Assembly: GCA_002082585.1 (NCBI GenBank)
Contig: CP020563.1
Coordinates: 924,001-988,000 of the forward strand
Direction: 5' to 3'
Origin: Kitasatospora albolonga
GTDB taxonomy: Bacteria; Actinomycetota; Actinomycetes; Streptomycetales; Streptomycetaceae
DNA length: 64,000 nucleotides
Numbering within the stretch: position 1 is the stretch's first letter; each line of letters starts with the position of its first letter. Under the pieces are notes generated by a model. The model did not search any database. It had not been told where the DNA came from and saw only the letters and a list, made by a program, of their open reading frames with translations. The position numbers were made by a program, and so were the translations under genes. Shown here piece after piece: positions 37,107-57,535 of this stretch.

Positions 37107-37723
37107 TCCGTGTCCTGTTGGCCGACGACCACCCCGTCGTACGGGAGGGGCTGCGCGGGATGCTCGACGCCGAGCCGGACCTGAGCGTGGTGGGCGAGGC
37201 GTCCAGCGGTCCCCGGGCCGAGGCCCTGTGCGCCGAGCTGCTGCCGGACATCGTGCTGATGGACCTGCGGATGCCCGGCGGCGGGGGCGTCGAGTCGATC
37301 CGCCGGATCAGGGCGGCCGGGCTGCCCTGCCGGGTCGTGGTGCTGACCACGTACGAGAGTGACGGCGACATCCTGCGGGCGGTGGAGGCGGGGGCGTCCG
37401 GCTATCTGCTCAAGGATCTGGGCCGGGGTGAGCTGGCGGAGGCGATCCGGGCCGCGGCCCGGGGAGAGACGGTGCTCGCGCCGACGGTGGCGACCCGGCT
37501 GGTGGACCAGTTGCGCGGGGTGCCGGAGCTGCCCCGGCTCTCGGAGCGCGAGACGGAGGTGCTGCGGCTGGTGGCGGAGGGGTGCACCAACGCGGAGATC
37601 GGGCGGCGGCTGTTCATCGGGGAGTCGACGGTGAAGACCCATCTGCTGCGGATCTTCGGCAAGCTGGGGGTGAGCGACCGGACCGCCGCGGTGACCGGGG
37701 CGATGCGCCACGGCCTGCTGTGA
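37103..37723 (+). CDS. NarL/LuxR-family response regulator
   Basis: Partner of the upstream kinase. The 206-residue protein has a receiver domain with acidic pair D8/D9, phospho-acceptor D54 (VLMDLRMP) and K104 (YLLKD), and a C-terminal LuxR-type HTH from about residue 141 (LSERETEVLRLVAEGCTNAEIGRRLFIGESTVKTHLLRIFGKL). Start ATG 37103 overlaps the kinase stop (ATGA) with AAGGAG ahead. It most likely controls the exporter operon itself. Its last codons (RHGLL and stop) are the first copy of a 32-33-bp tandem repeat that runs on past the gene. Confidence 0.94.
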   Translation: MIRVLLADDHPVVREGLRGMLDAEPDLSVVGEASSGPRAEALCAELLPDIVLMDLRMPGGGGVESIRRIRAAGLPCRVVVLTTYESDGDILRAVEAGASGYLLKDLGRGELAEAIRAAARGETVLAPTVATRLVDQLRGVPELPRLSERETEVLRLVAEGCTNAEIGRRLFIGESTVKTHLLRIFGKLGVSDRTAAVTGAMRHGLL

Positions 37724-37863
37724 GCGGCCGGGGCACGCACAACGGACTGCTGTGAACAGGCCCGGGCACGCGCAACGGACTGTTGTGAGCGGCCGGGGCA
37801 CACACAACGGACTGCGGTGAACCGCCCGGGCAGGTGACGCGGACTGCTGTGGAACGGCTGCGG
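37706..37863 (+). repeat. Tandem repeat, 32-33 bp x about 5, starting in the regulator 3' end
   Basis: The stop codon TGA of the response regulator (37721) recurs in matching context at 37753, 37786 and 37818, and as TGG at 37850. Each unit reads approximately CxCAACGGACTGCTGTGAxC followed by GGCCGGGGCA. Units are 75-90 percent alike. The first copy is coding, the rest are not. Confidence 0.85.
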
Positions 37864-37902
37864 CGCGGGCGGGGGGACCTGGGGTCCTTCCCGCCCGCGC
37901 CG
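37861..37902. terminator. Bidirectional terminator between response regulator and hisS
   Basis: CGGCGCGGGCGGG (37861-37873) pairs perfectly with 37890-37902, and the inner part can pair further (GGACC/GGTCC). It sits between two convergent genes, 30 bases past the hisS stop. Confidence 0.7.
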
Positions 37903-37905
37903 CTT

Positions 37906-37935
37906 CCGGTGCTTCCTCAGCCGGTGCTTCCTCAG
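37906..37935 (-). repeat. 15-bp perfect duplication spanning the hisS stop
   Basis: CCGGTGCTTCCTCAG occurs twice head to tail (37906-37920, 37921-37935). The hisS stop lies in the second copy and is copied in the first. Confidence 0.9.
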
Positions 37936-39194
37936 CCGAGCCGGGCCGTCAGCTCCGCCACGGCCCCGGCCAGCGGCACCGCGCTCTGCTCGCCGGACTC
38001 CATGTCCTTGAGCTGGACGACGCCCTCGGCCAGATCGCGTTCACCGGCCACCAGGGTGTAGCGGGCGCCCGAGCGGTTGGCGCTCTTCATCGCGCCCTTC
38101 AGGCCCCGGCCGCCGAACGCGAAGTCGGCGGCGATGCCCGCCCGGCGCAGCTCGGTGACGAGGGCGAACAGGGTCCGGCGGGCCTCCTCGCCGAGCGGGA
38201 CCGCGTACACGCTGGTGGTGACGGGCAGATCGAGCTCGACGCCCTCGGCCTCCAGCGCGAGGACCGTGCGGTCCACGCCGAGGGCCCAGCCCACGGACGG
38301 CAGCGCGGGGCCGCCGATCATCTCGGAGAGCCCGTCGTAGCGGCCGCCGCCGCCCACCGCGGACTGGGAGCCCAGCCCGTCGTGGACGAACTCGAAGGTG
38401 GTGCGGGTGTAGTAGTCGAGGCCGCGGACGAGCTTCTCGTCGTCCTCGTACACGACTCCGGCCGCCGTCAGCAGCGCGCGGACCTCCTCGTGGTACGCCT
38501 TGCAGGCGTCGCACAGGTAGTCCCGGAGCCGGGGGGCGTCGGTGAGCTGCTTCTGTACGTCCGCCCGCTTGTCGTCCAGGACGCGCAGCGGGTTGATCTC
38601 GATGCGGCGGCGGGTCTCCTCGTCGAGGTCGAGGTCGCGCAGGAAGGTCTGGAGCGCCTCGCGGTAGACGGGACGGCACTCCTTGTCGCCGAGCGAGTTC
38701 AGCAGGATGCGGAACTCGCGCAGGCCCAGCGAGCGGTACGCCTGGTCGGCGAGGATGATCAGCTCGGCGTCCAGGACCGGGTCCTCGGTGCCGATGGCCT
38801 CGGCGCCGACCTGCGAGAAGTGGCGGTAGCGGCCCTTCTGCGGGCGCTCGTAGCGGTAGTACGAGCCGGAGTACCAGAGCTTGACGGGGAGGTTGCCGGC
38901 CTTGTGGAGGTTGGCCTCCAAGGCGGCGCGCAGGACGGAGGCGGTGCCCTCGGGGCGCAGCGCCAGCTGGTCGCCGCCCTTGGTGGTGAGGGTGTACATC
39001 TCCTTGGTGACGATGTCGGTGGACTCGCCGACACCGCGCGCGAACAGCTCCACGTTCTCGAAGCCGGGCGTCTCGATGTAGCCGTAGCCGGAGTCGCGCA
39101 GGGGTGCGGAGATGGCCTCGCGCACCGCCAGGAACTTCGCGGAGTCCGGCGGGGTCAGGTCGTAGGTGCCCTTGGGGGCCTGGAAGGTGCTCAC
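37932..39194 (-). CDS. hisS: Histidyl-tRNA synthetase
   Basis: Charges tRNA-His. The 420-residue class II synthetase begins [20 protein letters not shown] and has motif 2 in [31 protein letters not shown], the HisA-type motif [21 protein letters not shown] near residue 255-275, motif 3 [17 protein letters not shown], and a C-terminal anticodon-binding domain ([26 protein letters not shown]). The GTG start at 39194 fits homologues; the open frame upstream is not conserved. The MBL hydrolase gene lies 17 bases upstream and is probably co-transcribed. Confidence 0.97.
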
Positions 39195-39211
39195 GTGGTT
39201 ACGTCTCTCGT

Positions 39212-39901
39212 CTACAGTCCTCGGCGCGGCGAGGCGTCCAGACCGTTCATGAACGGGTTGGTGGCGCGCTCGCGGCCGATGGTCGTCTGGGGGCCGTGGC
39301 CGGACAGCACCACGGTCGAGTCGTCGAGCGGCAGGCACACACGGGCCAGCGACTTCAACAGCTCGGCGTGGTCGCCGCCGGGCAGGTCGGTGCGTCCGAC
39401 GGAGCCGGCGAAGAGCAGGTCGCCCGAGAAGAGGACCGGCGGGATGTCCGCGGCCTCGGGCATCCCGAACGTCACCGACCCCTTCGTATGGCCGGGCGCG
39501 TGCGAGACACCGAACTCCAGACCGGCCAGGGTCAGCTTCGACCCGTCGGTCAGCTCCTTGACGTCGTCCGGCTCCCCCACGGTCAGCTCGCCCATGAGCG
39601 GCATCCCGATGGAGCGGCCGAGCGCCTTCTCCGGGTCGCTCATCATGTAGCGGTCCTCGGGGTGAATCCAGGCGGGGACGTCATGGGCGCCGCAGACGGG
39701 GACGACCGAGGCGACATGGTCGATGTGGCCGTGGGTGAGCACGACGGCGACGGGCTTGAGCCGATGCTTCTTCAGCGCTTCCTCGACGCCCTGGGTGGCC
39801 TGGTGGCCCGGGTCGATGATCACGCACTCCTCACCGGCGGCGGGGGCGACCAGATAGCAATTGGTCCCCCAGGCCCCGGCGGGGAACCCGGCAATGAGCA
39901 C
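39212..39901 (-). CDS. Metallo-beta-lactamase-fold hydrolase (glyoxalase II-like)
   Basis: A 229-residue MBL-fold protein with the metal-binding HxHxDH in [12 protein letters not shown] (H57, H59, D61, H62), a further His in [11 protein letters not shown] near 136, an Asp in [21 protein letters not shown] near 161 and the terminal His in [10 protein letters not shown]. These are the residues of hydroxyacylglutathione-hydrolase-type enzymes; in Streptomyces, which lacks glutathione, the thioester substrate is unknown. GTG at 39901 has AAGGA six bases upstream. It is conserved next to hisS in streptomycetes as I recall. Confidence 0.9.
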
Positions 39902-40050
39902 GATCGTCCTTAATGTTCGTCCGGAGGATGCGTCCGCAGCGATGGATGCGGTGGATCAGAGCCTACCGGCGCTCCTCATGACACAGGTAACCCATATACG
40001 GTACGGGCAGCCCAGCCCCCGATCCCATGATGTGACAAGGAGCCCAACCG

Positions 40051-40845
40051 GTGTCCAGCAGCGAACAGCGGCGGCGGCAGAACGCCCGGCTGAAGTACGA
40101 GCGCCAGCAGAAGCGCCGGGAGGAGGCCCGCCGCAGGACGAGGCGGATCACCGTGATCGTCGCGTCGGCGGTGGCCGTGACCGCCGTGGTGGGCGTGAGC
40201 GCCTTCGTCGTGGCGGACAGGTTCGGCGACGACGAGGACAAGAAGAAGGACACGGCGGCGAGCCAGAGCCCGGAGCCGACGCCGGAGGAGAGCGAGAGCA
40301 AGGCTCCCGAGCCTCCGATGACGATCGACAAGAAGGCGTCGTACACGATGTCGCTCGCCACGAGCCAGGGGGACATCGCGTTCTCCATGGACGCGGCGAA
40401 GACCCCGCACACGACGAACTCCTTCAAGGCGCTCGCCGACAAGGGCTACTTCGACGAGACGAAGTGCCACCGGCTCACCACCCAGGGCATCTTCGTCCTC
40501 CAGTGCGGCGACCCGAAGGGCGACGGCACGGGCGGCCCCGGTTACAACATCCCGGACGAGAACCTCACCGCGCTCGGCGAGGCGGGGGCCGACGGGACGG
40601 TGACGTTCCCCGCGGGCACGGTGGCGATGGCCAACACCGGTCAGCCGGGCTCCGGCGGCAGCCAGTTCTTCCTGGTCTACAAGGACACGAAGCTGCCCCC
40701 CACCTACACCCCGTTCGGCACGCTCGACAAGGAGTCCCTGAAGGCCGTCGAGAAGGTCGGCGCGGCGGGGGTCGAGGGCGGCATGGGCGACGGTGCGCCG
40801 AAGAAGGCCGTGGAGATCGAGAAGGCGACCGTGAAGAAGGACTGA
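40051..40845 (+). CDS. Membrane-anchored cyclophilin-type peptidyl-prolyl isomerase
   Basis: A 264-residue protein with a basic coiled N-terminus (QRRRQNARLKYERQQKRREEARRRT), one transmembrane helix near residues 34-55 (TVIVASAVAVTAVVGVSAFVV), an acidic and Lys-rich spacer, and an extracytoplasmic cyclophilin domain from about residue 90. The domain shows FKALADKGYFDETKCHRL, FVLQCGDPKGDGTGGPGYNIPDE, MANTGQPGSGGSQFFLVY and TYTPFGTL. The catalytic Arg/Phe positions of classical cyclophilins are only partly matched (HRLTTQGIFVLQCGDP in place of HRVIPGFMIQGGDP). The GTG start has AAGGAG nine bases upstream. Likely role: folding of secreted proteins. Confidence 0.92.
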   Translation: MSSSEQRRRQNARLKYERQQKRREEARRRTRRITVIVASAVAVTAVVGVSAFVVADRFGDDEDKKKDTAASQSPEPTPEESESKAPEPPMTIDKKASYTMSLATSQGDIAFSMDAAKTPHTTNSFKALADKGYFDETKCHRLTTQGIFVLQCGDPKGDGTGGPGYNIPDENLTALGEAGADGTVTFPAGTVAMANTGQPGSGGSQFFLVYKDTKLPPTYTPFGTLDKESLKAVEKVGAAGVEGGMGDGAPKKAVEIEKATVKKD

Positions 40846-40872
40846 TCCGGCCGGCGGCCCGGGGGCCGTGCT

Positions 40873-40895
40873 CCCGCCCGGAGCAGCCGGGCGGG
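40873..40895 (+). terminator. Terminator after the cyclophilin gene
   Basis: CCCGCCCGG and CCGGGCGGG form a 9-bp stem with an AGCAG loop, 28 bases past the stop. No T run. Confidence 0.5.
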
Positions 40896-40946
40896 GGCGG
40901 AGAATTTCGGCCGCGCTGAGTGCGGACAGCCGGGCGGCCGGTCGCC

Positions 40947-41030
40947 TAGATTGGCGTTGTGCAGGGCGGGCGAGGCCCGCCCGAGGAAACTGTGGACGAT
41001 GCCCGGGGGGCGAACCCCCTCGCAGGCATC
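40947..41030 (+). promoter_or_regulatory. Promoter and structured leader ahead of the DUF349 gene
   Basis: TAGATT at 40947 is a plausible -10 element. The transcript would then hold two hairpins: GGGCGGGC/GCCCGCCC with a GAG loop (40964-40982), and GATGCC...GGCATC with an inner GGGGG/CCCCC stem (40998-41030). The second ends one base before the sequence leading into the ribosome-binding GGAGGAGG. I do not recognise the fold as a known riboswitch. Confidence 0.45.
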
Positions 41031-41046
41031 AGGTGGAGGAGGCGCT

Positions 41047-42276
41047 GTGAGCAGCGACCCGTGGGGCCGCGTCGATGAGACGGGCACCGTGTACGTGCGT
41101 ACAGCCGACGGCGAGCAGGTCGTCGGATCGTGGCAGGCCGGTTCGCCTGAGGAGGCTCTGGCCTATTTCGAGCGCAAGTACGACGGCATTGTGGTCGAGA
41201 TCGGCCTCCTCGAACGGCGGGTGAAGACCACCGATCTGTCGGCGAAGGACGCGACGACCGCGATCGACCATCTGCGGCAGCAGGTGGACGAGCACCACGC
41301 GGTGGGCGACCTGGACGCGCTGCGCAAGCGGCTGGACGCGCTCGTGGCGACGGTCGAGGCGCGGCGCGAGGAGCGCAAGGCCCTCAAGGCCAAGCAGACC
41401 GACGAGGCCAAGCAGGCCAAGGAAGCGCTGGTCGCCGAGGCCGAGGAGCTGGCCAGGAGCGAGCAGTGGCGCTCGGCGGGTGAGCGGCTGCGGGCGCTGG
41501 TGGACACCTGGAAGGGTCTCCCCCGGCTGGACCGCAAGTCGGACGACGAGCTGTGGCACCGCTTCTCGCACGCCCGCTCGGCGTTCTCCAAGCGGCGCAA
41601 GGCGCACTTCGCCGCGCTGGACGCCCAGCGCGAGGAGGCCCGCAAGGCCAAGGAGAAGCTGGTCACCGAGGCCGAGTCCCTCTCCGGTTCGACGGACTGG
41701 GTCGGCACGGCCGCGCGCTACCGCGACCTGATGACCGAGTGGAAGGCGGCGGGCCGCGCCCAGCGCGAGGCCGAGGACGATCTGTGGTACCGATTCCGCG
41801 GCGCCCAGGACGTCTTCTTCGCCGCCCGCGGCGAGGTCTTCGCGGAGCGGGACGCCGAGCAGGGCGAGAACCTCAAGCTGAAGGAGGAGCTCGCCGCCGA
41901 GGCCGAGAAGCTGGTGCCGGTGAAGGACCTGAAGGCGGCCCGCGCCGCGTTCCGGTCCATCAACGAGCGCTGGGAGGCCATCGGCCACGTACCGCGTGAT
42001 GCCCGTCCCAAGGTCGAGGGCCGGATGCAGGCGGTGGAGCGGGCGCTCCAGGAGTCCGAGGAGTCCGAGTGGCGCCGGACGAACCCGGAGGCGCGGGCCC
42101 GCGCCGAGGGTCTGACCGGTCAGCTCCAGGCGGCCGTGGACAAGCTGCGCGGCCAGATCGACACCGCGCGCGCCCAGGGCAACAACGCCCGCGCGGACAA
42201 GCTGGCCAAGGAGCTGGAGGGCCGCCAGGCGCTGCTGGACCAGGCGCTGAAGGGCCTGGAGGAGTTCGGCGGCTGA
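41047..42276 (+). CDS. DUF349 coiled-coil protein
   Basis: A 409-residue, highly charged helical protein built from repeated DUF349 units of about 75 residues; signature pieces are WKGLPRLDRKSDDELWHRFSHARSAFSKRRKAHF, WKAAGRAQREAEDDLWYRFRGAQDVFFAARGEVF and RWEAIGHVPRDARPKVEGRM. The N-terminal 60 residues (SSDPWGRVDETGTVYVRTADGEQVVG) form a separate small beta-rich element. It has no enzyme motif and the biochemical role of DUF349 is not firmly known. The GTG at 41047 follows GGAGGAGG. It is convergent with relA and ends at a shared bidirectional terminator. Confidence 0.88.
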   Translation: MSSDPWGRVDETGTVYVRTADGEQVVGSWQAGSPEEALAYFERKYDGIVVEIGLLERRVKTTDLSAKDATTAIDHLRQQVDEHHAVGDLDALRKRLDALVATVEARREERKALKAKQTDEAKQAKEALVAEAEELARSEQWRSAGERLRALVDTWKGLPRLDRKSDDELWHRFSHARSAFSKRRKAHFAALDAQREEARKAKEKLVTEAESLSGSTDWVGTAARYRDLMTEWKAAGRAQREAEDDLWYRFRGAQDVFFAARGEVFAERDAEQGENLKLKEELAAEAEKLVPVKDLKAARAAFRSINERWEAIGHVPRDARPKVEGRMQAVERALQESEESEWRRTNPEARARAEGLTGQLQAAVDKLRGQIDTARAQGNNARADKLAKELEGRQALLDQALKGLEEFGG

Positions 42277-42286
42277 GACCCCGCGC

Positions 42287-42321
42287 AAAAGCCCCGGTAC
42301 GCATCGCGTACCGGGGCTTTT
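42287..42321. terminator. Bidirectional terminator between DUF349 gene and relA
   Basis: AAAAGCCCCGGTACGC and its exact complement (42306-42321) flank a three-base loop, so both strands carry a T run after a 16-bp stem. It serves both convergent genes. Confidence 0.9.
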
Positions 42322-42360
42322 CCGTTGCCGCCGTTACGGCTCCGTTGTCGCTCCTACGGC
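42321..42360 (-). repeat. 20-bp imperfect duplication spanning the relA stop
   Basis: 42321-42340 and 42341-42360 agree at 16 of 20 positions (TCCGTTG...ACGGC). The relA stop TAG (42354-42356) has a counterpart TAA in the other copy. Confidence 0.75.
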
Positions 42361-45005
42361 CTGCGGGCCGAGGTGACCCGGTAGACGTCGTAGACGCCCT
42401 CCACGCCGCGTACGGCCTTCAGGACATGGCCCAGATGCTTCGGGTCGCCCATCTCGAAGGTGAAGCGCGAGGTGGCCACCCGGTCGCGGGAGGTCTGGAC
42501 GGCCGCCGAGAGGATGTTGACGTGCTGGTCGGAGAGGATGCGGGTGACGTCGGAGAGGAGCCGGGAGCGGTCCAGCGCCTCGACCTGGATGGCGACCAGG
42601 AAGACCGAGGACTGGGTGGGGGCCCATTCGACGTCGAGGATGCGCTCGGGCTGCTGCGAGAGCGACTCCACGTTGACACAGTCGGCGCGGTGCACGGAGA
42701 CGCCGCTGCCCCGGGTGACGAAGCCGATGATCGGGTCGCCGGGGACGGGCGTGCAGCAGCGGGCGAGCTTGACCCAGACGTCCTCGACGCCCTTGACAAC
42801 CACACCGGGGTCCGCGTTGGCCCGGCGCTTGCTGCGGCCGCCGTGCGAGGGCGGGGTGGATTCGGCCAGATCCTCGTTGGCCTCGTCGTGGCCGCCGAGC
42901 GCCTGCACCAGCTTCTGTACGACACCGGCCGCCGCGACATGGCCCTCGCCGATCGCCGCGTACAGCGAGGAGATGTCGGGGTAGCGCATCTCGTGGGCGA
43001 GGGTGACCAGGGAGTCGCCGGTCAGGATGCGCTGGATCGGCAGGTTCTGCTTGCGCATGGCCCGCGCGATGGCGTCCTTGCCCTGCTCGATGGCCTCGTC
43101 ACGGCGCTCCTTGGAGAACCAGGCGCGGATCTTGTTGCGGGCGCGGGGTGACTTGACGAAGCCCAGCCAGTCCCGGGAGGGGCCCGCCCCGGCCGCCTTG
43201 GAGGTGAAGACCTCCACCAGGTCGCCGTTGTCGAGCGTCGACTCGAGCGGGACGAGCCGCCCGTTGACACGTGCTCCTATGGTCCGGTGGCCGACCTCGG
43301 TGTGGACGGCGTACGCGAAGTCGACGGGGGTCGCGCCGGCCGGCAGCGCTATCACGTCGCCCTTCGGTGTGAAGACGAAGACCTCGTTGCGCGAGAGGTC
43401 GAAGCGCAGGGACTCCAGGAACTCGCTGGGGTCCTCGGTCTCCTTCTGCCAGTCCAGGAGCTGGCGCAGCCACGCCATGTCGTTGACGGTGTCCTGGCCG
43501 CGTCCGGTGTTCTTGGGGACGTCGGTACGGACCTTGGAGGCGCCCGCGACGGCCTCCTGCTTGTACTTCCAGTGGGCGGCGATGCCGTACTCGGCGCGGC
43601 GGTGCATGTCGAACGTACGGATCTGGAGCTCGACGGGCTTGCCGCTGGGACCGATCACCGTGGTGTGCAGCGACTGGTACATGTTGAACTTGGGCATCGC
43701 GATGTAGTCCTTGAACCGCCCGGGCACCGGGTTCCACCGGGCGTGGACGGTGCCGAGCGCCGCGTAGCAGTCGCGGACGGTGTCGACAAGTACCCGAATC
43801 CCCACCAGGTCGTAGATCTCGGCGAAGTCGCGGCCCCGCACGATCATCTTCTGGTAGACGCTGTAGTAGTGCTTGGGGCGGCCGGTGACGGTGGCCTTGA
43901 TGCGGGCGGCGCGCAGGTCGGCCTGGACCTCGTCGGTCACTATGGCGAGGTACTCGTCGCGCTTGGGGGCCCGCTCGGCGACGAGGCGGACGATCTCGTC
44001 GTACATCTTGGGGTAGAGGATCGCGAAAGCGAGGTCCTCCAGCTCCCACTTGATGGTGTTCATGCCCAGCCGGTGCGCCAGCGGGGCGTAGATCTCCAGC
44101 GTCTCGCGGGCCTTCTTCTCCTGCTTCTCCCGCTTGAGGTAGCGCATGGTGCGCATGTTGTGCAGCCGGTCGGCGAGCTTGATGACGAGGACCCGGGGGT
44201 CCTTGGCCATGGCGACGACCATCTTGCGTACGGTCTCGGCCTGGGCGGCCTCGCCGAACTTGACCTTGTCCAGCTTGGTGACGCCGTCGACGAGCAGGGC
44301 GACCTGGTCGCCGAACTCGCGCCTGAGGGTGTCCAGGCCGTACTCGGTGTCCTCGACGGTGTCGTGGAGCAGCCCGGCCATCAGGGTGGCCGGGTCCATG
44401 CCGAGCTCGGCCAGGATCGTGGTGACGGCGAGCGGGTGCGTGATGTACGGGTCGCCGCTCTTGCGCTTCTGGCCGCGGTGCCAGCGCTCGGCCACCTGGT
44501 AGGCGCGCTCGATCTGGCGGAGGGTGGCCGTCTCGATCTTGGGGTCGTTGCCCCGGACCGTACGGAGGAGGGGCTCCAGAACCGGGTTGTACGGGCTGGA
44601 GCGCTGAACGCCCAGCCGGGCGAGGCGGGCCCGCACGCGGTTGGAGGAGCCGCCGGAGCGGGACGACGCGGAACCGGCCGGGGCGGCGGGCTTCACGGGC
44701 GCCGGGGGCGGGGTGGGGGCCGGGGGCTTCGGCGGGGGTGTGGCGGCCGGTTTCCCGGAGGTCCCGGAGGCGGGGGGTTCGGACGCCGGGCCCTTCCCGG
44801 ATGCCTTCGGCGCCGGGCTCGCGGGCGTGGCCGGTTTCGGCTGTCCGGCGGGGGGCGCGGCGGCCCGGGGGCGCTCGGAGGTCGCGGCGGGCTCCGGGGG
44901 CGCGGGCTTCGGCGCGTTCGAGGGCGCGGCCGTCCGGGGCGTGGCGGGGGACGCCACGGGCTTGTCGGGCTGCGGGGCGGCGGCTGACTGGGCCTCGTCT
45001 GGCAA
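42354..45005 (-). CDS. relA: (p)ppGpp synthetase/hydrolase RelA (Rel)
   Basis: Makes and degrades the stringent-response alarmones ppGpp/pppGpp. The 883-residue protein begins [15 protein letters not shown] and has an unusually long Pro/Ala/Lys-rich N-terminal segment to about residue 115. It is followed by the HD hydrolase domain with intact HDTVED at 214-219, the synthetase domain ([38 protein letters not shown]), a TGS domain ([24 protein letters not shown]) and a C-terminal ACT domain ([20 protein letters not shown]). I chose the TTG at 45005: homologues start at this PDEAQ, and AGGAG lies just upstream. The open frame continues upstream without coding character. Convergent with the DUF349 gene. 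Confidence 0.96.
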
Positions 45006-45359: not shown

Positions 45360-45767
45360 TCAGGCAACACCCTTGCTCGTCGCACAGAACTTGGGAGTGC
45401 CCGAATATCCGTCACGCAGACACACCTTGAAAGTGACCGTCCTGCCTTCGGGAATGTTGAAGGAACTCGTCGTGTGCTTGCACGTGCCCTTGCCGCTCGC
45501 GGCGTCCAGGCGGATGCTGCCGCCGGACCACGACGCCTCGACGGTGGCGCGGTACCCGTCCGCCTTCTGGTCACAGACCGAGAGGAACTCCTCCTCCGCC
45601 CCGGGCCCGTCGTGATCGAATCCGGCACGGCCCCCGGGGCTGCTGTCGGTGGTCAGCGCGTACGCGTTCGTCCCCGCGTAGGCAGCCGTGGACATCAGCG
45701 CCAGCCCCAGGGCACCGGCGAACACTCCCACGGTCTTCACGAATCGGCGATCGACAGCTTTCGACAT
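45360..45767 (-). CDS. Small secreted protein with four cysteines, unknown
   Basis: A 135-residue protein beginning SKAVDRRFVKTVGVFAGALGLALMSTAAYA: a classical signal peptide with cleavage expected after AYA near residue 31. The mature part is about 104 residues with four Cys (in SVCDQKADG, GTCKHTTSS, KVCLRDGYS and KFCATS), probably two disulfides, and beta-rich spacing. It matches no family I know. Start ATG 45767 has GGAG five bases upstream. It lies between relA and apt, which are adjacent in S. coelicolor as I recall, so it looks like a lineage-specific insertion with lower GC around it. Confidence 0.75.
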   Translation of the reverse strand: MSKAVDRRFVKTVGVFAGALGLALMSTAAYAGTNAYALTTDSSPGGRAGFDHDGPGAEEEFLSVCDQKADGYRATVEASWSGGSIRLDAASGKGTCKHTTSSFNIPEGRTVTFKVCLRDGYSGTPKFCATSKGVA

Positions 45768-45891
45768 TTCACTCCGCTCACAGAACATCACGTACGGAGT
45801 GATCATCACACGGCCCCTCGGAAAGATACAGCGATTTAATCCGCCGGGGAATATTCGGAATTCTTTGTTCCACCTCGCGACAAGTCGAAGT

Positions 45892-45935: not shown

Positions 45936-45944
45936 ACAAGACGC

Positions 45945-49472: not shown

Positions 49473-49524
49473 ACGGCCCCGGGGACGCCGCGCGCCGATG
49501 GGCGCGCGACGTCCCCGGGGCCGT
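49473..49524 (-). terminator. Large hairpin between yajC and secD
   Basis: ACGGCCCCGGGGACG-N2-GCGCGCC and its complement form a 22-bp interrupted stem starting five bases after the yajC stop. It could terminate or attenuate transcription into secDF. Confidence 0.65.
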
Positions 49525-49529
49525 GAGAA

Positions 49530-50024
49530 CTACTTGGTGTCGGTCTCGCCGTCGGCCTTGCCCTCGCCCTTGGCGTCCTTGACGTTCTTGGCCGTCGCGT
49601 CGTCCTGGGGCTCGGCGGCGTCGGCCGCCTCGTCCTTGCCCAGGTCGATCTTGGCGATGTCCGCCTTGTCCGCGTCGGGCTCACCGGTCAGGGAGGAGGC
49701 GTCGTCGGGAACGACCGTTCCGTCCGCGTCCAGCTCGTCGTCGTCGCCGTGCACGATGCGGTTGTACTCCGCGTCGTCCAGGACGGCGCCGACCGCGTTC
49801 TTCGCGTAGATGGCGTGCACGCCGGGGGCGACCTCAAGGAGCACGGTGTCGTCGTGGACTTCCTTGACGGTCGCGTACATGCCCCCGATCGTCCGGACGC
49901 CGGTACCGGGCTGCATGTCGTTGCGCATCTGCGCGGCCGCCGCCTGCTTCTTCTTGGCGGAGCGGGTCATCAGGAACATGGCCCCGATGAGCACGATGAA
50001 GGGGAGGAGAGTCAAGATATCCAC
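49530..50024 (-). CDS. yajC: Preprotein translocase accessory subunit YajC
   Basis: A single-span membrane protein of the SecDF-YajC complex. The 164-residue product begins DILTLLPFIVLIGAMFLMTRSAKKKQAAAAQMRNDMQPGTGVRTIGGMYATV: TM near residues 5-20 and the YajC core to about residue 85. The C-terminal 80 residues are acidic and Lys/Asp/Ala-rich, a streptomycete-type extension. GTG 50024 has AAGGAA about ten bases upstream. It lies between ruvB and secD, the standard order. Confidence 0.95.
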   Translation of the reverse strand: MDILTLLPFIVLIGAMFLMTRSAKKKQAAAAQMRNDMQPGTGVRTIGGMYATVKEVHDDTVLLEVAPGVHAIYAKNAVGAVLDDAEYNRIVHGDDDELDADGTVVPDDASSLTGEPDADKADIAKIDLGKDEAADAAEPQDDATAKNVKDAKGEGKADGETDTK

Positions 50025-50191
50025 GGGACGGGAATTCCTTCGCACGACCGCGCTGGAAATGCGGCCTCTATATACGGGGGTGGGTATACCGACCTGTAAG
50101 GGCGGCATCGGCGGAGTCTAAGCGAGTCCGCATCGTTGGAACAACGCCCAGCATGGCACCCCGGTTCCGCTCGAAGCCAACCTGTGACGCA

Positions 50192-51277
50192 TCACGCCCC
50201 GAACAGACCCTGTTGTCCCTTTGCGCCGTGCTGCGGCGGAACGAGTCCCAGGTGGGCCCAGGCGGCCGGGGTGGCCACCCGCCCGCGCGGCGTCCTGGCC
50301 AGCAGTCCTTCCCGTACGAGGAAGGGTTCGGCGACCTCCTCGACGGTCTCGCGCTCCTCCCCCACGGCGACCGCCAGGGTGGACAGGCCGACCGGGCCGC
50401 CGCCGAACAGTTTCAGCAGCGCGCCGAGCACCGCGCGGTCCAGCCGATCGAGGCCCCTGGCGTCAACCTCGTACACCTTGAGGGCCGCCGCCGCGATCTC
50501 CCGGTCGATCGTGCCCTCGGCCTTGACCTGGGCGTAGTCCCGGACCCGGCGCAGCAGCCGGTTGGCGATACGGGGGGTGCCCCGGGAGCGTCCGGCGATC
50601 TCGGCGGCGCCCTCGGCGTCGATGCCGACGTCTAGCAGGCGGGCAGAGCGGTGGATGACGCGCTCCAGCTCGGTGGGGGCGTAGAACTCCATGTGGCCGG
50701 TGAAGCCGAAGCGGTCGCGCAGCGGGGGCGGGAGCAGTCCGGCCCGGGTGGTTGCCCCGACCAGGGTGAAGGGGGGCAGCTCCAGCGGGATCGCGGTGGC
50801 GCCGGGGCCCTTGCCGACGATGACGTCGACGCGGAAGTCCTCCATCGCCATGTAGAGCATCTCCTCGGCGGGCCGGGACATGCGGTGGATCTCGTCGAGG
50901 AAGAGGACCTCGCCCTCCTGGAGGGAGGAGAGGATCGCCGCGAGGTCGCCCGCGTGCTGGATGGCGGGGCCCGAGGTGATCCGGATCGGGGCGTTCATCT
51001 CCGCCGCGATGATCATGGAGAGGGTGGTCTTGCCGAGGCCGGGGGCGCCGGAGAGCAGCACGTGGTCGGCGGTGGCGCCCCGGGCGCGGGCCGCCTTGAG
51101 CACCAGGTCGAGCTGTTCACGGACCTTTTCCTGGCCGACGAACTCCTCCAGGTCCTTGGGGCGCAGGGCCGCCTCGACCGCGGTGTCCTCACCGTCCGCG
51201 TCAGCGTCGACCAGCCGGTCGTCGAAGACGGGCCCGGTGGGCTCGTCGGTCTCGGGTCCGGTCTCGTCCCAGTTCAT
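50192..51277 (-). CDS. ruvB: Holliday junction branch-migration ATPase RuvB
   Basis: An AAA+ motor that forms hexamers on RuvA-bound junctions. The 361-residue protein has [19 protein letters not shown] near residues 36-54, Walker [15 protein letters not shown] near 73-86, Walker [20 protein letters not shown] near 124, and the [21 protein letters not shown] sensor/arginine-finger block near 172. The winged-helix DNA-binding C-terminus includes [17 protein letters not shown]. Start ATG 51277 is 30 bases after the ruvA stop. Confidence 0.97.
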
Positions 51278-51307
51278 TTCGGGGCCTCTTCGGTGGTTCG
51301 GTGCCGG

Positions 51308-51934
51308 TCAGCGTGCGCGGTTGAGAGTCTGCAGGGCGGCCCGCAGCAGCTGCGGCACGGGGGGTGCGGCACCCTCGGCGACGGCCGCCTCCGCCTGCGG
51401 GGCGACGGCGGTGACGGCCTCCTCCGCCTCACGGCTCGCGTAACCGAGGCCGATCAGCGCGGCTTGGAGCTGGTCGCGCCAGCCCGAGGTCGCGGGGGTG
51501 CCGGTGCCCTGCTGGCCGATGTGCGCGCCGACCGGGGCGCCGAGCCGGTCCTTGAGCTCCAGCAGCAGCTTCTGGGCGCCCTTCTTCCCGATGCCGGAGA
51601 CGGCGGTCAGCGCCTTCTCGTCCCCGGTGGAGACGGCCAGGCGCAGCGCGTCGGGGCTGTGGGTGGCGAGCATGGCCTGCGCGAGCCGGGGGCCGACGCC
51701 GCTGGCGGTCTGAAGCAGCTCGAAGACCTGCCGCTCGTCGTCGTCGGCGAAGCCGTACAGCGTGAGGGAGTCCTCGCGGACGACGAGGGAGGTGGCGAGC
51801 CTGGCCTCCTGGCCGACGCGCAGCCCGGCCAGGGTCTGCGGGGTGCACTGGAGGGCCATACCGATGCCGCCGACCTCGATGACGGCCGTGGCCGGGGCGA
51901 GAGCGGCCACCGGGCCGGAGACGAAGGCGATCAT
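51308..51934 (-). CDS. ruvA: Holliday junction DNA helicase subunit RuvA
   Basis: Binds four-way junctions and loads RuvB. The 208-residue protein starts [24 protein letters not shown] (OB-fold domain I), has the tandem helix-hairpin-helix domain II ([25 protein letters not shown] and [21 protein letters not shown]), and domain III at the C-terminus ([21 protein letters not shown]). ATG 51934 overlaps the ruvC stop by four bases. Confidence 0.97.
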
Positions 51935-52803
51935 GCGGCGGGGCCTTTCAGCGTGCGGGAGATGCGGGGGGTGTCGGGTGCGCCGGAGGTACGGGGGGCG
52001 GCGGCGGACGTGGAGGGCGGCGCGGGCGTGCCTGCCGTACGGGACGGGCCTGCCGTGCCTGCCGTGCCTGCCGTACGGGACGTGGTGGGGGTACGGGAGG
52101 TGGCGGACGCGCCTGGGATGCCAGCCGTACGGGAGGCGGCGGACGCGCCCGGCGTGCGGGATGTGACAGGCGTGCCGGACGTACCCGGTGTGCGGGACGT
52201 GCCGGACGCCGTACGGGACGTGGTGGACTCACCTGTCGTGCGGGAGGCGCCGGGGTTACGGGAAGTCCCCGGCACCCGGGCCGTGCCCTGGGTGCGGTGG
52301 GCCGCTACCGCCTGCTGGAGCCTGTTCTGCGCGGGGGCCCGCCAGATGTGGCAGATCGCCAGGGCCAGGGCGTCGGCGGCGTCGGCGGGCCTGGGCGGGG
52401 CGTCCAGCCTCAGCAGCCGGGTCACCATCGCCCCGACCTGGGCCTTCTCCGCGCGGCCGGAGCCGGTGACGGCGGCCTTGACCTCGCTGGGCGTGTGCAG
52501 GGCGACCGGGATGCCCCGGCGGGCGGCGCAGAGCATGGCCACCGCGCTGGCCTGGGCCGTGCCCATCACCGTACGGACGTTGTGCTGGGCGAAGACGCGC
52601 TCCACGGCCACATAACCCGGGGCGTACTCGTCGAGCCAGGCTTCTATGCCCTGCTCGACGGCGACGAGCCGGTCCCCCAGCTCCGCGTCGGCCGGGGTAC
52701 GGACGACGCCGACGCCGAGCATGGTCAGCGGGCGGCCCGCCACCCCCTCGACCACGCCGACACCGCACCGGGTCAGTCCCGGGTCAATGCCCAGAACCCG
52801 CAT
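51931..52803 (-). CDS. ruvC: Holliday junction resolvase RuvC with 120-residue repetitive C-terminal extension
   Basis: Cuts Holliday junctions symmetrically. Residues 1-170 are a complete RuvC with the catalytic acidic residues D7 ([11 protein letters not shown]), E68 (VAVERVF), D141 and D144 ([14 protein letters not shown]). Typical RuvC ends about residue 170-185. Here residues 171-290 form a low-complexity tail of Ser, Thr, Arg, Pro, Gly and Ala with many copies of SRTxG and TSRTP. The four-base ATGA overlap with ruvA at the far end of the tail shows the extension is really translated and coupled. ATG 52803 is the start. The tail has no predicted fold and its length probably varies between strains. 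Confidence 0.93.
51934..52293 (-). repeat. Degenerate short tandem repeats coding for the RuvC tail
   Basis: On the plus strand, elements such as GCCGTACGGGACGTG and CCTGCCGTG recur many times at irregular multiples of three bases across about 330 bases. Because spacing is mostly in triplets, the reading frame stays open on more than one strand. Confidence 0.75.
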
Positions 52804-52896
52804 GGAGCCCCCTGTCCTCGCTGCTCGCCACGCCCACTCGTTCATCTGTTCCCGCAGGCTATCGGCTCGCACTGACAAACCGTCGGAACCGACAAG

Positions 52897-52933
52897 ACGG
52901 CGGGCCGACGGGGTGTCCCCGTCGGCCCGCCGT
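52897..52933 (-). terminator. Terminator after yebC
   Basis: A perfect 17-bp stem (ACGGCGGGCCGACGGGG and complement) with a TGT loop begins 23 bases past the yebC stop and precedes ruvC by about 100 bases. ruvCAB therefore probably has its own promoter in 52804-52896. Confidence 0.75.
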
Positions 52934-52955
52934 TCCGTGCTGTGCCGGCCGCGCC

Positions 52956-53708
52956 TCAGGCGTCGACCTTCTCCATGACCTCGTCGGACACGTCGAAGTT
53001 GGCGAAGACGTTCTGCACGTCGTCGCTGTCCTCCAGCGCGTCGATGAGCTTGAAGATCTTGCGCGCGCCCTCTTCGTCCAGCTCGACCTGCATGGTCGGC
53101 AGGAAGTTGGCCTCGGCGGAGTCGTAGTCGATGCCCGCCTCCTGGAGCGCGGTGCGCACCGCGACCATGTCGGTGGCCTCGCTGACCACCTCGAAGGTCT
53201 CGCCCAGGTCGTTGACCTCCTCCGCACCCGCGTCGAGCACCGCGCCGAGGACGTCGTCCTCGGTCAGCTCGCCCTTGGGGACGATCACGACGCCCTTGCG
53301 GTTGAAGAGGTACGAGACGGAGCCCGGGTCGGCCATCGAGCCGCCGTTCCGGGTCATCGCGACACGTACGTCGGAGGCGGCACGGTTGCGGTTGTCGGTG
53401 AGGCACTCGATGAGCACCGCGACACCGTTGGGGCCGTACCCCTCGTACATGATCGTCTCGTAGTCGGTCCCGCCCGCCTCGAGTCCGCCGCCGCGCTTGA
53501 CGGCGGATTCGATGTTCTTGTTCGGGACGGAACTCTTCTTCGCCTTCTGGATGGCGTCGACGAGGGTCGGGTTTCCATCGGGGTCCACGCCGCCGGAACG
53601 CGCCGCGACCTCGATGTTCTTGATCAGCTTCGCGAAGAGCTTGCCGCGCTTGGCGTCAATCACGGCCTTCTTGTGCTTCGTCGTAGCCCATTTAGAGTGG
53701 CCGGACAT
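52956..53708 (-). CDS. yebC: YebC/TACO1-family protein
   Basis: The 250-residue protein begins [27 protein letters not shown], the invariant YebC N-terminus, followed by the central [24 protein letters not shown] and C-terminal acidic region. YebC proteins have been described as transcriptional regulators and more recently as translation factors acting at proline-rich stalls; the role here is not determined by the sequence. ATG 53708 has GGAG upstream; the frame continues eight codons further. It follows pdxT by 61 bases. Confidence 0.95.
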
Positions 53709-53769
53709 CTGCCTTCTCCTTCGCGTCACCAAAATCGAGTCGAACCCGAGAGATCCTACCGGGGTCCGC

Positions 53770-54363
53770 TCACTTCACCGCGCGCACCATGTCCACGAAG
53801 AGCGCGTGCATACGGTGGTCGCCGGTCAGTTCGGGATGGAACGACGTGGCGAGGACATTCCGCTGCCGCACGGCCACGATGTGGCCGCCGTGCTCCGCGA
53901 TGACCTCGGCCTCGGCCCCGACGGACTCCACCCAGGGGGCGCGGATGAACACGCCCTCCACCGGGCCGCCCTCGATCCCGGCGACCTCGACCGCCGCTTC
54001 GAAGGACTCGTTCTGCCGTCCGAAGGCGTTGCGCCGCACGATCATGTCGATGCCGCCGACGGTCTCCTGGCCCGAGCGCGGGTCCAGGATCTTCTCGGCC
54101 AGCAGGATCATCCCGGCGCAGGTGCCGTAGACCGGCATCCCGGCCCGGACCCGCTCGCGCAGCGGCTCCATCATGCCGAAGAGGACCGCCAGCTTGGACA
54201 TGGTGGTGGACTCGCCGCCGGGGATGACCAGGCCGTCGACCTCGGCGAGCTCCTCGGGGCGCCGGACCGGCCTGGCCAGGGCGTCCGCCGAGGCCAGGGC
54301 GATCAGGTGCTCCCGTACGTCGCCCTGGAGCGCCAGGACACCGATCACAGGGGTGTCGCTCAT
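53770..54363 (-). CDS. pdxT: Pyridoxal 5'-phosphate synthase glutaminase subunit PdxT
   Basis: Supplies ammonia from glutamine to PdxS for direct PLP synthesis. The 197-residue protein has [14 protein letters not shown] at the N-terminus, IPGGESTTM near 47, the nucleophile Cys in [13 protein letters not shown] near 80 and the His/Glu pair in [10 protein letters not shown] near 172. ATG 54363 follows the pdxS stop by six bases. Confidence 0.97.
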
Positions 54364-54369
54364 CAGTGG

Positions 54370-55290
54370 TTACCAGCCGCGGTTGGCGTAGCGCTCGGAC
54401 TCGGGCAGGGTGTCGCAGTTGATGCCGACCATGGCCTCGCCCAGGTTGCGGGAGGCGTCCGCGATGACCTTGGGGTCGTCGTAGAAGGTGGTGGCCTTCA
54501 CGATGGCGGCGGCGCGCTTGGCCGGGTCGCCGGACTTGAAGATGCCGGAGCCGACGAAGACGCCCTCGGCGCCGAGCTGGCGCATCAGCGCGGCGTCGGC
54601 CGGGGTGGCGACACCACCGGCGGAGAAGAGGACGACGGGCAGCTTGCCGAGCTCCGCGACCTCCTTGACCAGCTCGTAGGGGGCGCGCAGGTCCTTGGCG
54701 GCGGCGTACAGCTCGTTGTTGTCGAAGCCGCGCAGCTTGGCGATCTCGTTCTTGATCTGGCGCAGGTGGCGGACGGCCTCGACGACGTTGCCGGTGCCTG
54801 CCTCGCCCTTGGAGCGGATCATGGCCGCGCCCTCGGCGATGCGGCGCAGGGCCTCGCCCAGGTTGGTGGCGCCACAGACGAAGGGGGTGGTGAAGGCGAA
54901 CTTGTCGCTGTGGTTGACCTCGTCGGCCGGGGTGAGGACCTCGGACTCGTCGATGTAGTCGACGCCGAGGGACTGGAGGACCTGGGCCTCGACGAAGTGG
55001 CCGATGCGGGACTTGGCCATGACGGGGATGGAGACGGCCCCGATGATCTCCTCGATCATGTTGGGGTCGGACATCCGGGCCACGCCGCCGTCCTTGCGGA
55101 TGTCGGCCGGGACCCGCTCCAGGGCCATGACAGCCACGGCGCCCGCGTCCTCGGCGATCTTCGCCTGCTCGGCGTCGACGACGTCCATGATCACGCCGCC
55201 CTTGAGCTGCTCGGCCATGCCGCGCTTGACGCGGGCGGTGCCGGTGGCGGGGGACTCGGCGGACTGCGGGGTGCTGGGAAGCGTGGACAC
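54370..55290 (-). CDS. pdxS: Pyridoxal 5'-phosphate synthase subunit PdxS
   Basis: Builds PLP from ribose 5-phosphate, glyceraldehyde 3-phosphate and ammonia. The 306-residue TIM-barrel protein has [18 protein letters not shown] with the first Asp, the catalytic lysines in [10 protein letters not shown] (near 92) and [15 protein letters not shown] (near 160), and the phosphate-binding [30 protein letters not shown]. The GTG start at 55290 matches Streptomyces homologues. It forms an operon with pdxT, downstream of the PIM lipid genes. Confidence 0.97.
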
Positions 55291-55435
55291 GGGACCTCAC
55301 TCGGTGAAAGACGCTGAATTACTGCATCGCCGAGCAAACGCTGTGGCACCGGTCCACAGCAAGGGCCAATAGGGAGGCTGTGGATCGTTTTGGCCCCGTA
55401 TCCGCTCCCGGCCCGGGTGCCGGGGCGGTCCGGTG

Positions 55436-55560
55436 TCAGGTCCCCGGGCGGGCCGGGCCCAGGCCACTGGGCAGTCGGGCTCAGGCCCCGGGCGGTCCGC
55501 TCTCAGGTCCCCGGCGGTTCGCTCTCAGGCCCCGGGCGGTTCGCTCTCAGGCCCCCGGCC
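55436..55560 (-). repeat. Tandem repeat, 22 bp x about 6, starting in the LemA-like gene 3' end
   Basis: The gene stop (complement TCA at 55547) recurs in matching context at 55525, 55503 and 55481, with weaker copies near 55459 and 55436. Spacing is 22 bases (once 23). The unit on the plus strand is about GGCGGTTCGCTCTCAGGCCCC. The remainder of the 256-base gap to pdxS holds no recognised feature. Confidence 0.85.
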
Positions 55561-56095
55561 GGTCCGCCAGCGCCACCGGAGGGGCGTCGTCCATCTCGAA
55601 GGCGAGCGGGAACGGGGCGTGCCCGGCCAGCCGGAACAGCCGTACCGTACGGTGCCGGCGCAGGGCGCGGGCGGCGCGTACGGAGTCGTTGTGGAAGCGC
55701 CGGGCCATGGGTACGCGGCGTACGGCGGCGGCCAGTTCGGTGGCCGCGTCCTCGCCGCCGGGGACCTCCTTCACCGCCTCCACCTGGGCCGGTTCGCCGA
55801 AGACGGCGCGCAGGGCGGCGCTCAGCTCGCTCTCGGCGACCTCGCGGTGGTCCTCCTCGGCCTGCCGGGCGGCGTGCGCGGCCTCGTACAGGACGATGGA
55901 GGCGGCCGGGTCCAGGACGCCGGAGGTGGCCAGCTCCTGGGTGACCGAGGCGCGGCGCAGGAGCTGGGCGTCGAGTGCGGCGCGGGCGGCGTCGATCCGG
56001 GAGTGCAGGCGGTCGAGGCGGCCGGCGGTCCAGCTGAGGTAGACGCCGATCGCGACGAGGGCGACGACGATCCAGACGATGAGGGTTACGGTCAC
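55547..56095 (-). CDS. LemA-like membrane protein
   Basis: A 182-residue protein with an N-terminal transmembrane helix (LIVWIVVALVAIGVYLSW, residues 5-22), then the helical RLDRLHSRIDAARAALDAQLLRRASVTQEL, which follows the LemA pattern of a helix with Asp/Gln around a double Arg. A second LemA-like motif is ARRFHNDSVRAARALRRHRTV near 143-163, where LemA has ARRxYNxxV. LemA function is unknown. GTG 56095 is the start. It lies between pimA and pdxS, an arrangement seen in other streptomycetes from memory. The 3' end carries stop-spanning tandem copies. Confidence 0.8.
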   Translation of the reverse strand: MTVTLIVWIVVALVAIGVYLSWTAGRLDRLHSRIDAARAALDAQLLRRASVTQELATSGVLDPAASIVLYEAAHAARQAEEDHREVAESELSAALRAVFGEPAQVEAVKEVPGGEDAATELAAAVRRVPMARRFHNDSVRAARALRRHRTVRLFRLAGHAPFPLAFEMDDAPPVALADRPGA

Positions 56096-56221
56096 GGGCC
56101 CACACGCTACCGTCGCCGGGGCCCGGTCCTTTCAACGGGAGGCCGCGCCTCCTGGTTCCCACGGAAGGCCGCGCCCCGGAAAAGCGGGAGCCCGCGCCCC
56201 GGCACAGCCCGTACGGGCTCC

Positions 56222-57382
56222 TCAGTCCCGCGCCAGCCCGAACCGCGCCCGCAGCCCCGACCGTTCGTCCTCCGCGACCGACGCGGCCCCGTCCGTCACC
56301 GTCTCGTACACCGCGAGGATGTCGGCCCCCACGGTCCCCCAGTCGAACCGCCGTACGTGCGCCTCGCCCCGCTCCCGCAGTCCGGCCCGGCGCTCCGGGT
56401 CGCCCAGCAGCCGGATCGCGGCGGCGGCCAGCGCGTCGGCGTCCTCGTTGGCGAAGAGGTCGCCCGCCGCCCCCTGGTCCAGCACCTGCGCGAAGGCGTC
56501 CAGGTCGCTCGCGAGGACCGGGGCCCCCGCCGACAGGGCCTCCACCAGGATGATGCCGAAGCTCTCGCCGCCCGTGTTCGGGGCCACGTACACATCGACA
56601 CTGCGCAGCAGCCGGGCCTTGTCCTCGTCGCTGACCATGCCGAGGAACTCCACGCGCCCGCGCAGCTCCTTAGGCAGCGATGCCACCGCCTCCTCCTCGT
56701 CCCCGCGCCCCGCGACCAGCAGCCGGGTCTCCGGGCGGGCCGCGATAATGGCGGGGAGCGCCTTCATCAGGACGGGCAGCCCCTTGCGGGGTTCGTCGAT
56801 GCGGCCGATGAAACCGAGGGTCTGCCCCTGCCACTCGGCCTTCGGCTCGGCCTTGGCGAAGAAGCCGACGTCGACGCCGTTCGGGATGACCACGGCGTCC
56901 CCGCCCAGGTGCTCGACCAGGGTGCGCCGCGCGTACTCGCTCACCGCGATCCGCGCGCTGATCTTCTCCAGCGCGGGCTGGAGGATCGGGTACGCGGCGA
57001 TCATCGCCCGGGAGCGCGGGTTGGAGGTGTGGAAGGTGGCCACGATGGGCCCCTGCGCGGACCAGCAGGCGAGCAGGCCGAGCGAGGGGGAGGTCGGCTC
57101 GTGGATGTGGATGACGTCGAAGGTGCCGTCGTGCAGCCAGCGGCGGACCCGGGCGGCCGACAGGAAGCCGAAGTTCAGCCGGGCGACGGAGCCGTTGTAC
57201 GGGACCGGGACGGCCCGGCCCGCCGAGACGACGTAACGAGGCAGCGGGGTCTCGTCGTCGGCCGGGGCCAGGACGGAGACGGTGTGGCCGAGCCCGATGA
57301 GGTGTTCGGCCAGGTCCCGGATGTGGAACTGGACGCCGCCGGGGACGTCCCAGGAGTACGGGCAGACGATGCCGATCTTCAC
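56222..57382 (-). CDS. pimA: Phosphatidylinositol alpha-mannosyltransferase PimA
   Basis: Transfers the first mannose from GDP-mannose to phosphatidylinositol on the cytoplasmic face of the membrane. The 386-residue GT4/GT-B enzyme starts KIGIVCPYSWDVPGGVQFHIRDLAEHL, the typical PimA N-terminus with the donor loop GG. The C-terminal domain has GFIGRIDEPRKGLPVLMKAL, and the nucleotide-binding EX7E element is visible as ESFGIILVEALSAG. GTG 57382 is preceded by GGGGAG at seven bases. The 133 bases between its start and the patA stop are made of 27-bp repeats of that same start/stop junction. Confidence 0.95.
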   Translation of the reverse strand: MKIGIVCPYSWDVPGGVQFHIRDLAEHLIGLGHTVSVLAPADDETPLPRYVVSAGRAVPVPYNGSVARLNFGFLSAARVRRWLHDGTFDVIHIHEPTSPSLGLLACWSAQGPIVATFHTSNPRSRAMIAAYPILQPALEKISARIAVSEYARRTLVEHLGGDAVVIPNGVDVGFFAKAEPKAEWQGQTLGFIGRIDEPRKGLPVLMKALPAIIAARPETRLLVAGRGDEEEAVASLPKELRGRVEFLGMVSDEDKARLLRSVDVYVAPNTGGESFGIILVEALSAGAPVLASDLDAFAQVLDQGAAGDLFANEDADALAAAAIRLLGDPERRAGLRERGEAHVRRFDWGTVGADILAVYETVTDGAASVAEDERSGLRARFGLARD

Positions 57383-57535
57383 GTGCGCGCTCCCCGGAGT
57401 CCGGTCCTCATGTGCTCCAGCCGGAATCCGGCCCTCACGTGCTCTCGCCGGAATCCGGCCCTCACGTGCCCTCCCCGGGCTTCGGGCTTCACGCGCTCTC
57501 CCCGGAATGCGGTCGTCACGCGCTCTCCCCCCGGG
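57379..57535 (-). repeat. 27-bp tandem repeat of the patA stop / pimA start junction
   Basis: The motif TGA of patA (57516-57518) recurs at exact 27-base steps at 57489, 57462, 57435 and 57408, then 29 bases further at the pimA GTGA (57379-57382). On the minus strand the unit is approximately GGAGAGCGCGTGAxGxCCGG plus seven bases. Most units hold a GGAG-like ribosome-binding sequence and a GTGA or ATGA stop/start. Confidence 0.9.

Follow-up and report, generated by a model that had tools for sequence, protein, structure and literature searches.

Stop-spanning tandem repeats in a Streptomyces genome and a possible stop-start relay between patA and pimA

The window analysed here, a stretch of 64,000 nucleotides (bases 924001-988000) of the one-contig 8.03-Mb genome of Kitasatospora albolonga, a Streptomyces judging from its relatives, carries short tandem arrays that cross the stop codons of genes and run into the DNA behind them. 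An earlier note on this DNA had named five such arrays and a possible sixth. With Tandem Repeats Finder (TRF), used down to a score of 30, we found four of the five: at a response regulator gene (forward strand, 37103-37723, stop 37721-37723), where a unit of 32-33 bp is present 5.0 times at 37695-37858; at hisS (reverse strand, 37932-39194, stop 37932-37934), with 15 bp x 2.2 at 37906-37938; at an uncharacterised gene (reverse strand, 55547-56095, stop 55547-55549), with 22 bp x 6.5 at 55423-55567; and at patA (reverse strand, stop 57516-57518), with 27 bp x 5.2 at 57390-57530. The fifth, two copies of 20 bp at 42321-42360 over the end of relA (reverse strand, 42354-45005), is absent from the TRF rows at score 30; it is visible as a 20-bp insertion relative to the sister genome G063 and was checked in the letters. 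The candidate at rarA (reverse strand, 31951-33318, stop 31951-31953) also proved to be an array across the stop, of 54 bp x 2.0 at 31878-31982 (TRF score 122). A seventh, which the note did not have, lies at 56190-56259 (reverse strand, 29 bp x 2.5, TRF score 71) over the stop of a pimA-like glycosyltransferase gene. The name LemA-like given to the uncharacterised protein has no support from any Pfam or NCBIfam family at E<=0.001, and "lemA-like" is kept below as a label. As the note had stated, the units do not form one repeat family: compared by eye they are mutually unrelated in sequence. Copies in the larger window arrays match at 77-84% (TRF), and the hisS duplication is exact (100% match). 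The two largest arrays can also be read with a period of two or three units (65 bp, the dimer pattern of the response regulator array, and 67 bp), as does the patA array of G063 (54 bp), and such additional periods are a mark of stepwise expansion.

Our census of arrays covered 1.84 Mb of the 8.03-Mb chromosome (~23%), sampled every 100 kb together with a 320-kb block that includes the window, and 1,517 genes called with our own codon model rather than taken from a published annotation, with stops surer than starts. At a period of at least 9 and a score of at least 50, it comprised 665 arrays. Stop-spanning arrays numbered 57, compared with 26.7 expected under uniform placement, start-spanning arrays 7 (24.8 expected), coding arrays 374 (530 expected) and wholly intergenic arrays 222 (76.1 expected); a further 5 of the 665 reach a gene edge but include neither a stop nor a start. 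Stops are enriched over random positions, yet less than intergenic DNA, and these two claims have to be kept apart: the enrichment at stops, whose absence the note would have taken as a refutation, stands against random positions and fails against non-coding DNA. The window, with six stop-spanning arrays and one wholly intergenic array where the remaining sample has 51 and 221, over-represents the stop pattern and is not typical of the sample.

Repeat coverage at score 50, which like the counts of bridging open reading frames (ORFs) given below comes from an earlier gene-calling round (1,381 genes in 1.664 Mb; 1,511 versus 1,517 genes in 1.84 Mb), is about 0.01 at a point 100 nt within genes and, in convergent gaps, reaches 0.13-0.19 over the first 40 nt past stops. 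It rises over the last 20-40 nt of the gene, plateaus beyond the stop and has its minimum around starts (0.005-0.013 in the 20 nt upstream). By type of gap, it amounts to 0.133 in convergent, 0.071 in co-directional and 0.051 in divergent ones. Intrusion into the coding sequence is shallow, at most one unit in 52 of the 57 stop-spanning arrays, where stops placed at any point of the array would give 20.5. The other Streptomyces samples gave 31 of 40 against 14.8 (40 array-stop pairs compared with 38 arrays of the class "stop", one extra array spanning a stop plus a start). Unit lengths at stops show no frame bias (18/20/19, multiples of three first), compared with 337/19/18 for coding arrays. 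Shallow intrusion, the lack of frame bias and the avoidance of starts in this genome bear out the suggestion, made in the note, that such duplications may simply be tolerated.

Comparison with relatives indicates where the units come from. G063 shares a mean identity of 91.6% with the window genome over 219 kb of syntenic blocks, and the repeat is missing from it at five of the seven window sites (response regulator, hisS, relA, rarA and lemA-like). Its rarA site is 57 bp shorter and without an array; at the response regulator the alignment blocks stop at 37730 and restart at 37862 with an advance of only 6 bp in G063, that is, one copy; and at the lemA-like site, where the blocks break at the array, G063 has a single copy. 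At the glycosyltransferase stop it carries a different array (44 bp x 2.2), and its patA array is one unit (27 bp) shorter. Single-copy relatives indicate that the window arrays were built from their own gene ends. Among 150 syntenic gaps, 18 hold an array only in the window genome, 11 only in G063 and 5 in both. The collections searched hold one genome per species, and assembly may have dropped arrays from those relatives that are draft genomes. In other Streptomyces, a stop-spanning repeat was found at one of 57 hisS 3' ends at score 30 (locus L145, 12 bp x 1.9), and at the 3' ends of lemA-like orthologs in 8 of 76 loci at score 50 and 9 of 76 at score 30. The eight arrays at score 50 have units of 13 to 48 bp, which points to repeated and mostly independent formation. 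Arrays at the lemA-like/pdxS junction occur in L095, L102, L103, L107, L118, L149, L152 and L157.

The load of such arrays is raised in the window genome. Stop-spanning arrays occur at 57 of 1,517 genes here and at 38 of 2,369 in the other Streptomyces including G063 (Fisher p 4e-5), the latter rate covering 80 loci of one orthologous region and samples that are not independent. As the window was selected for its arrays, we also counted without it, and 51 of 1,459 still differs from the other Streptomyces (p 2e-4). When G063 (10 of 532) is the sole reference, the p value with the window included is 0.034. Stop-spanning arrays are present in all Streptomyces samples and the excess lies in non-coding repeats generally, with a non-coding repeat coverage of 0.066 here, 0.027 and 0.029 in the G063 samples and 0.024-0.094 in other Streptomyces samples. 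The alternative raised in the note, an unusual slippage or repair habit, stands as far as the excess over other Streptomyces goes and not as a peculiarity of stops. Array turnover is general and the window genome lies at its high end, roughly twofold. Loss of the mismatch-repair nuclease NucS was considered as a cause of the repeat load and rejected, NucS being above cut-off in all six Streptomyces genomes checked. A 150-kb sample of E. coli (128 genes) held one array and no stop-spanning one, and 100 kb of three other actinobacteria (106 genes) held 24 arrays and no stop-spanning one against 0.9 expected under uniform placement; both samples are too small to say more.

The patA array differs in architecture. 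PatA, a phosphatidylinositol mannoside acyltransferase (reverse strand, 57516-58427; NCBIfam NF005919, 437.6 bits, cut-off 209), is followed by a glycosyltransferase gene of the GT4 type (reverse strand, 56222-57382; Pfam PF13439 and PF13692) that we take to be pimA from the mycobacterial operon order; none of the 25 of its 29 NCBIfam matches that were listed reaches its cut-off. The two genes lie 133 nt apart, and an ORF of 46 codons inside the array (57379-57519, reverse strand) bridges them, its GTG overlapping the patA stop and its TGA the GTG start of the pimA-like gene, by 4 nt (RTGA, where R is A or G) on both sides. This stop-start arrangement had also escaped the earlier note. G063 has the same architecture, 27 bp shorter, with an ORF of 37 codons and both 4-nt overlaps. 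There are six RTGA sites here (spacings 27, 27, 27, 27 and 29) and five in G063 (27, 27, 27 and 29). Every unit carries an RTGA and all but one a Shine-Dalgarno-like core of at least 4 nt. When the seven internal units from the two species are lined up, the TGA columns do not vary and the R position is A or G, with a mean pairwise identity of 0.67 in the other columns; a Shine-Dalgarno match of at least 4 nt lies upstream in 6 of these 7 units, compared with 426 of 1,526 (28%) non-coding RTGA sites. Compared by eye, the unit appears to consist of the patA end with its ribosome-binding core, the RTGA and a diverged pimA start.

In nearly all other Streptomyces loci examined the two genes are directly joined. 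Of 80 loci fetched, 71 hold both genes and 70 of these keep the 4-nt RTGA overlap; the remaining one, L135, has an upstream break in the patA frame but retains the RTGA overlap. Of eight additional genomes that the patA-pimA query matched weakly end to end, seven have the -4 overlap. A search of 392 genomes of the genus (E<=1e-58) gave seven matches including the window genome; the match extends over the array in this genome and G063 alone, and the remaining five have a plain patA-pimA junction. Further relays were sought among the weak matches and not found in the eight strongest, which are seven C-terminal extensions of PatA with a -4 overlap and one locus, L249, without a relay. Some species (among L088-L167 and L243-L250) have a PatA tail that extends past the matched part by as many as 55-56 residues, and the -4 overlap is exact despite this growth in all but one of the genomes with an unbroken patA.

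In our judgement, most stop-spanning arrays are likely to be neutral or near-neutral duplications of 3' regions, and the patA-pimA array is likely to be a copy of the stop-start junction and possibly a relay. An array would begin with the duplication of a short segment from the 3' end of a gene, which measures 15 to 54 bp in the window and 11 to about 70 bp across the sample, and would then grow and shrink step by step, with replication slippage or unequal exchange as the probable mechanism. Where the copied segment takes in the stop, the duplication would amount to an insertion downstream of the first stop, and the protein would therefore be unchanged. Such duplications would survive in 3' regions and be mostly removed inside genes and at starts, and the window genome would make or keep them at roughly twice the rate of the other Streptomyces samples. 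The segment copied at patA-pimA would be the junction itself, the ribosome-binding core together with the RTGA, giving a chain of stop-start modules, and the ORF leading from the patA stop to the pimA start may pass terminating ribosomes from one gene to the other.

Several observations weigh against so simple an account of the stop-spanning arrays. In the convergent gaps of this genome, 30 arrays span stops where 22.1 +/- 3.9 were expected (p 0.026; 75 tolerated of 76 arrays placed at random with an intrusion of at most one unit), an excess that tolerance alone would not predict. The lemA-like stop bears an array in 8 of 76 relatives when the other genes of those loci do so in three at most, so local sequence must also matter. 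Unit lengths of the intergenic arrays are biased to multiples of three (107/59/56 of 222), which suggests that some of these may be missed coding sequence or decayed genes; missed coding sequence would bring the intergenic yardstick down. With the window left out, the raised rate of stop-spanning arrays is no longer significant relative to G063 alone (p 0.077), and starts were not avoided in two small G063 samples (3 versus 3.6 and 4 versus 2.9 expected). Over the G063 samples (L178-L207) as a whole, start-spanning arrays number 7 against 6.5 expected, in small numbers; the remaining other samples gave 4 against 19.9. We regard tolerance, to which local sequence adds a little, as the most economical account.

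The convergent-gap excess and the recurrent lemA-like arrays are also what would be expected if the stop codon, or a ribosome or RNA polymerase paused there, were a true duplication hotspot, for instance through conflicts between replication and transcription at 3' ends, and convergent gaps do have the highest repeat coverage. We find this improbable, since coverage plateaus past the stop instead of peaking at it and since in the other Streptomyces samples 9 of 31 arrays in convergent gaps span a stop against 9.6 expected; the stop within convergent gaps is a slight hotspot at most. Retention of arrays as backup stops against read-through, to which the TGA kept in several response regulator and lemA-like copies might be credited, is very unlikely: of 115 later copies, 56 (0.49) retain the stop triplet, a lower share than for control triplets (952 of 1,586, 0.60), with 0.49 versus 0.57 in the other samples, and most copies are out of frame given that 18 of the 57 units are multiples of three. 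Equally hard to credit is a dispersed mobile family that targets gene ends in the manner of mycobacterial interspersed repetitive units (MIRUs) or repetitive extragenic palindromic (REP) elements, although MIRUs do occupy stop-start junctions with -4 nt coupling according to a 2025 review (PMC12548453). Units compared by eye are unrelated between sites, single-copy relatives show that they equal the local gene end, and the sole match of the patA array is its own locus, both in the 1.84-Mb sample (E<=0.1) and in a search of the whole genome (E<=0.001), where 5 of 162 candidates were scored. Tandem repeats are prone to misassembly, which would favour an artefact. This is the least credible of the explanations, given that copies within the larger arrays differ, that other sequenced species have stop-spanning arrays and that G063, itself a one-contig genome, carries a related but different patA array.

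Whether the bridging ORF does anything is a separate matter. It is quite possible that the patA-pimA array is neutral junk and the ORF a by-product of copying a junction with a unit that is a multiple of three. The 27-bp unit keeps the frame automatically, and the single spacing of 29 gives the final overlap at a chance of one in three. A bridge occurs in 1 of 20 co-directional gaps with a stop-spanning array and in 22 of 488 array-free ones; by the criterion used, 19 of the 20 co-directional stop-spanning arrays (gaps of 20-400 nt) have no bridge, and the relay was rejected as a general pattern. Loss of the overlap is tolerated in L249, where pimA starts 8 nt after the patA stop with no relay. 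Moreover, 10 of the 27 unit columns are invariant and the TGA is one invariant three-column window of 27 (p ~0.04), the RTGA sites were found by searching for RTGA, the unit copies are not independent, and the relay is known from one locus in two sister species; one locus with related copies makes for weak relay statistics. On the other side, the invariant TGA and the ribosome-binding cores are kept in both species despite the divergence of the units, and the -4 overlap is strictly conserved, being present in 70 of the 71 loci and in seven of the eight additional genomes. We infer from these sequence features that ribosomes may use the ORF and that selection may maintain it. The fuller proposal is advanced tentatively, as rather unlikely: the array would be a selectively kept relay that arose by junction copying and not from a mobile repeat, its unit number would set the ribosome supply, and slippage would make it an adjustable dial for the enzyme ratio.

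Among known systems, MIRUs come closest to the patA-pimA array. They insert at start codons and bring an ORF of their own that couples at a -4 nt spacing, as summarised in the 2025 review (PMC12548453), and they are described in another article as dispersed, apparently mobile units of 40-100 bp at 41 places in M. tuberculosis H37Rv (PMC2734929). Like them, patA-pimA, alone among our sites, has a repeat at a gene junction and a short ORF coupled to the downstream gene at -4 nt. Unlike them, its unit measures 27 bp (15-33 bp at the other window sites except rarA, 54 bp), turned up at a single site and seems to have been copied from the junction, a local origin that argues against mobility. The same article reports that direct repeats at rnc-fpg1 of M. 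tuberculosis (ETR-F / VNTR3239) push the genes 279-358 bp apart, with a few bp between them in most related species, and that longer arrays accompanied higher fpg1 mRNA (PMC2734929). These repeats too separate genes that are near-adjacent in most related species, but the array starts 40 bp past the rnc stop and no bridging ORF is described in the sections on it. The tandem repeats of Borgs are reported to begin with a unit that lies wholly or partly inside a gene end, and 14-38% of their intergenic unit lengths are multiples of three (PMC9879509). Our arrays resemble them in being fast-changing, independently formed and begun in a gene end (52 of the 57 stop-spanning ones), although 222 of 665 are wholly intergenic here, and differ from these perfect, A-rich repeats in being GC-rich, mostly diverged and on a bacterial chromosome. 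Coupling is stated to require overlaps or very short distances (PMC10666635). In 70 of the 71 other Streptomyces loci, patA-pimA fits termination-reinitiation at ATGA/GTGA overlaps of -4 nt; here, unlike at plain -4 overlaps, the genes are joined only via the array-borne ORF. Among the titles listed by literature searches, none concerned stop-spanning repeats of bacterial chromosomes, which is not proof of absence. The remark in the note that it knew of no named description is too strong in view of the Borg repeats and MIRUs: the general pattern is already known in kind, and the novelty is the putative junction-derived relay.

The rule that emerges is that a duplication across a stop would be an insertion after the gene, so that gene ends may gather repeats that are mostly barred from coding sequence and starts. 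At patA-pimA, a conserved 4-nt overlap has been pulled apart apparently without unlinking the genes, as duplication of the junction would duplicate the coupling signal as well. Junction copying might thus be a route to MIRU-like intergenic ORFs without a mobile element and, if the relay is real, its unit number might tune the relative amounts of two enzymes that belong to a single membrane-lipid pathway.

Other features of the window were noted beside these arrays. A terminator-like hairpin (37860-37903; RNA fold of 37840-37910, -53.9 kcal/mol) lies between the convergent response regulator and hisS genes, and RNA folding also gave a terminator-like hairpin 3' of the relA duplication (42287-42321, reverse strand). 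Both are single-copy and lie past the repeats, and a hairpin resembling the former is present once in G063. The response regulator ortholog beside hisS in G063 (L180) looks frameshifted in its 3' part. Upstream of relA, the segment 45094-45944, with a small called gene at 45360-45809, breaks the G063 alignment and corresponds to about 60 bp there. Finally, the RuvC gene (51931-52803, reverse strand) encodes a protein of 290 residues whose Pfam domain (residues 3-152) is followed by a long tail rich in Ser, Thr and Pro; this tail derives partly from 18-bp repeats (52023-52084 and 52151-52201 by TRF), and the G063 alignment breaks there.

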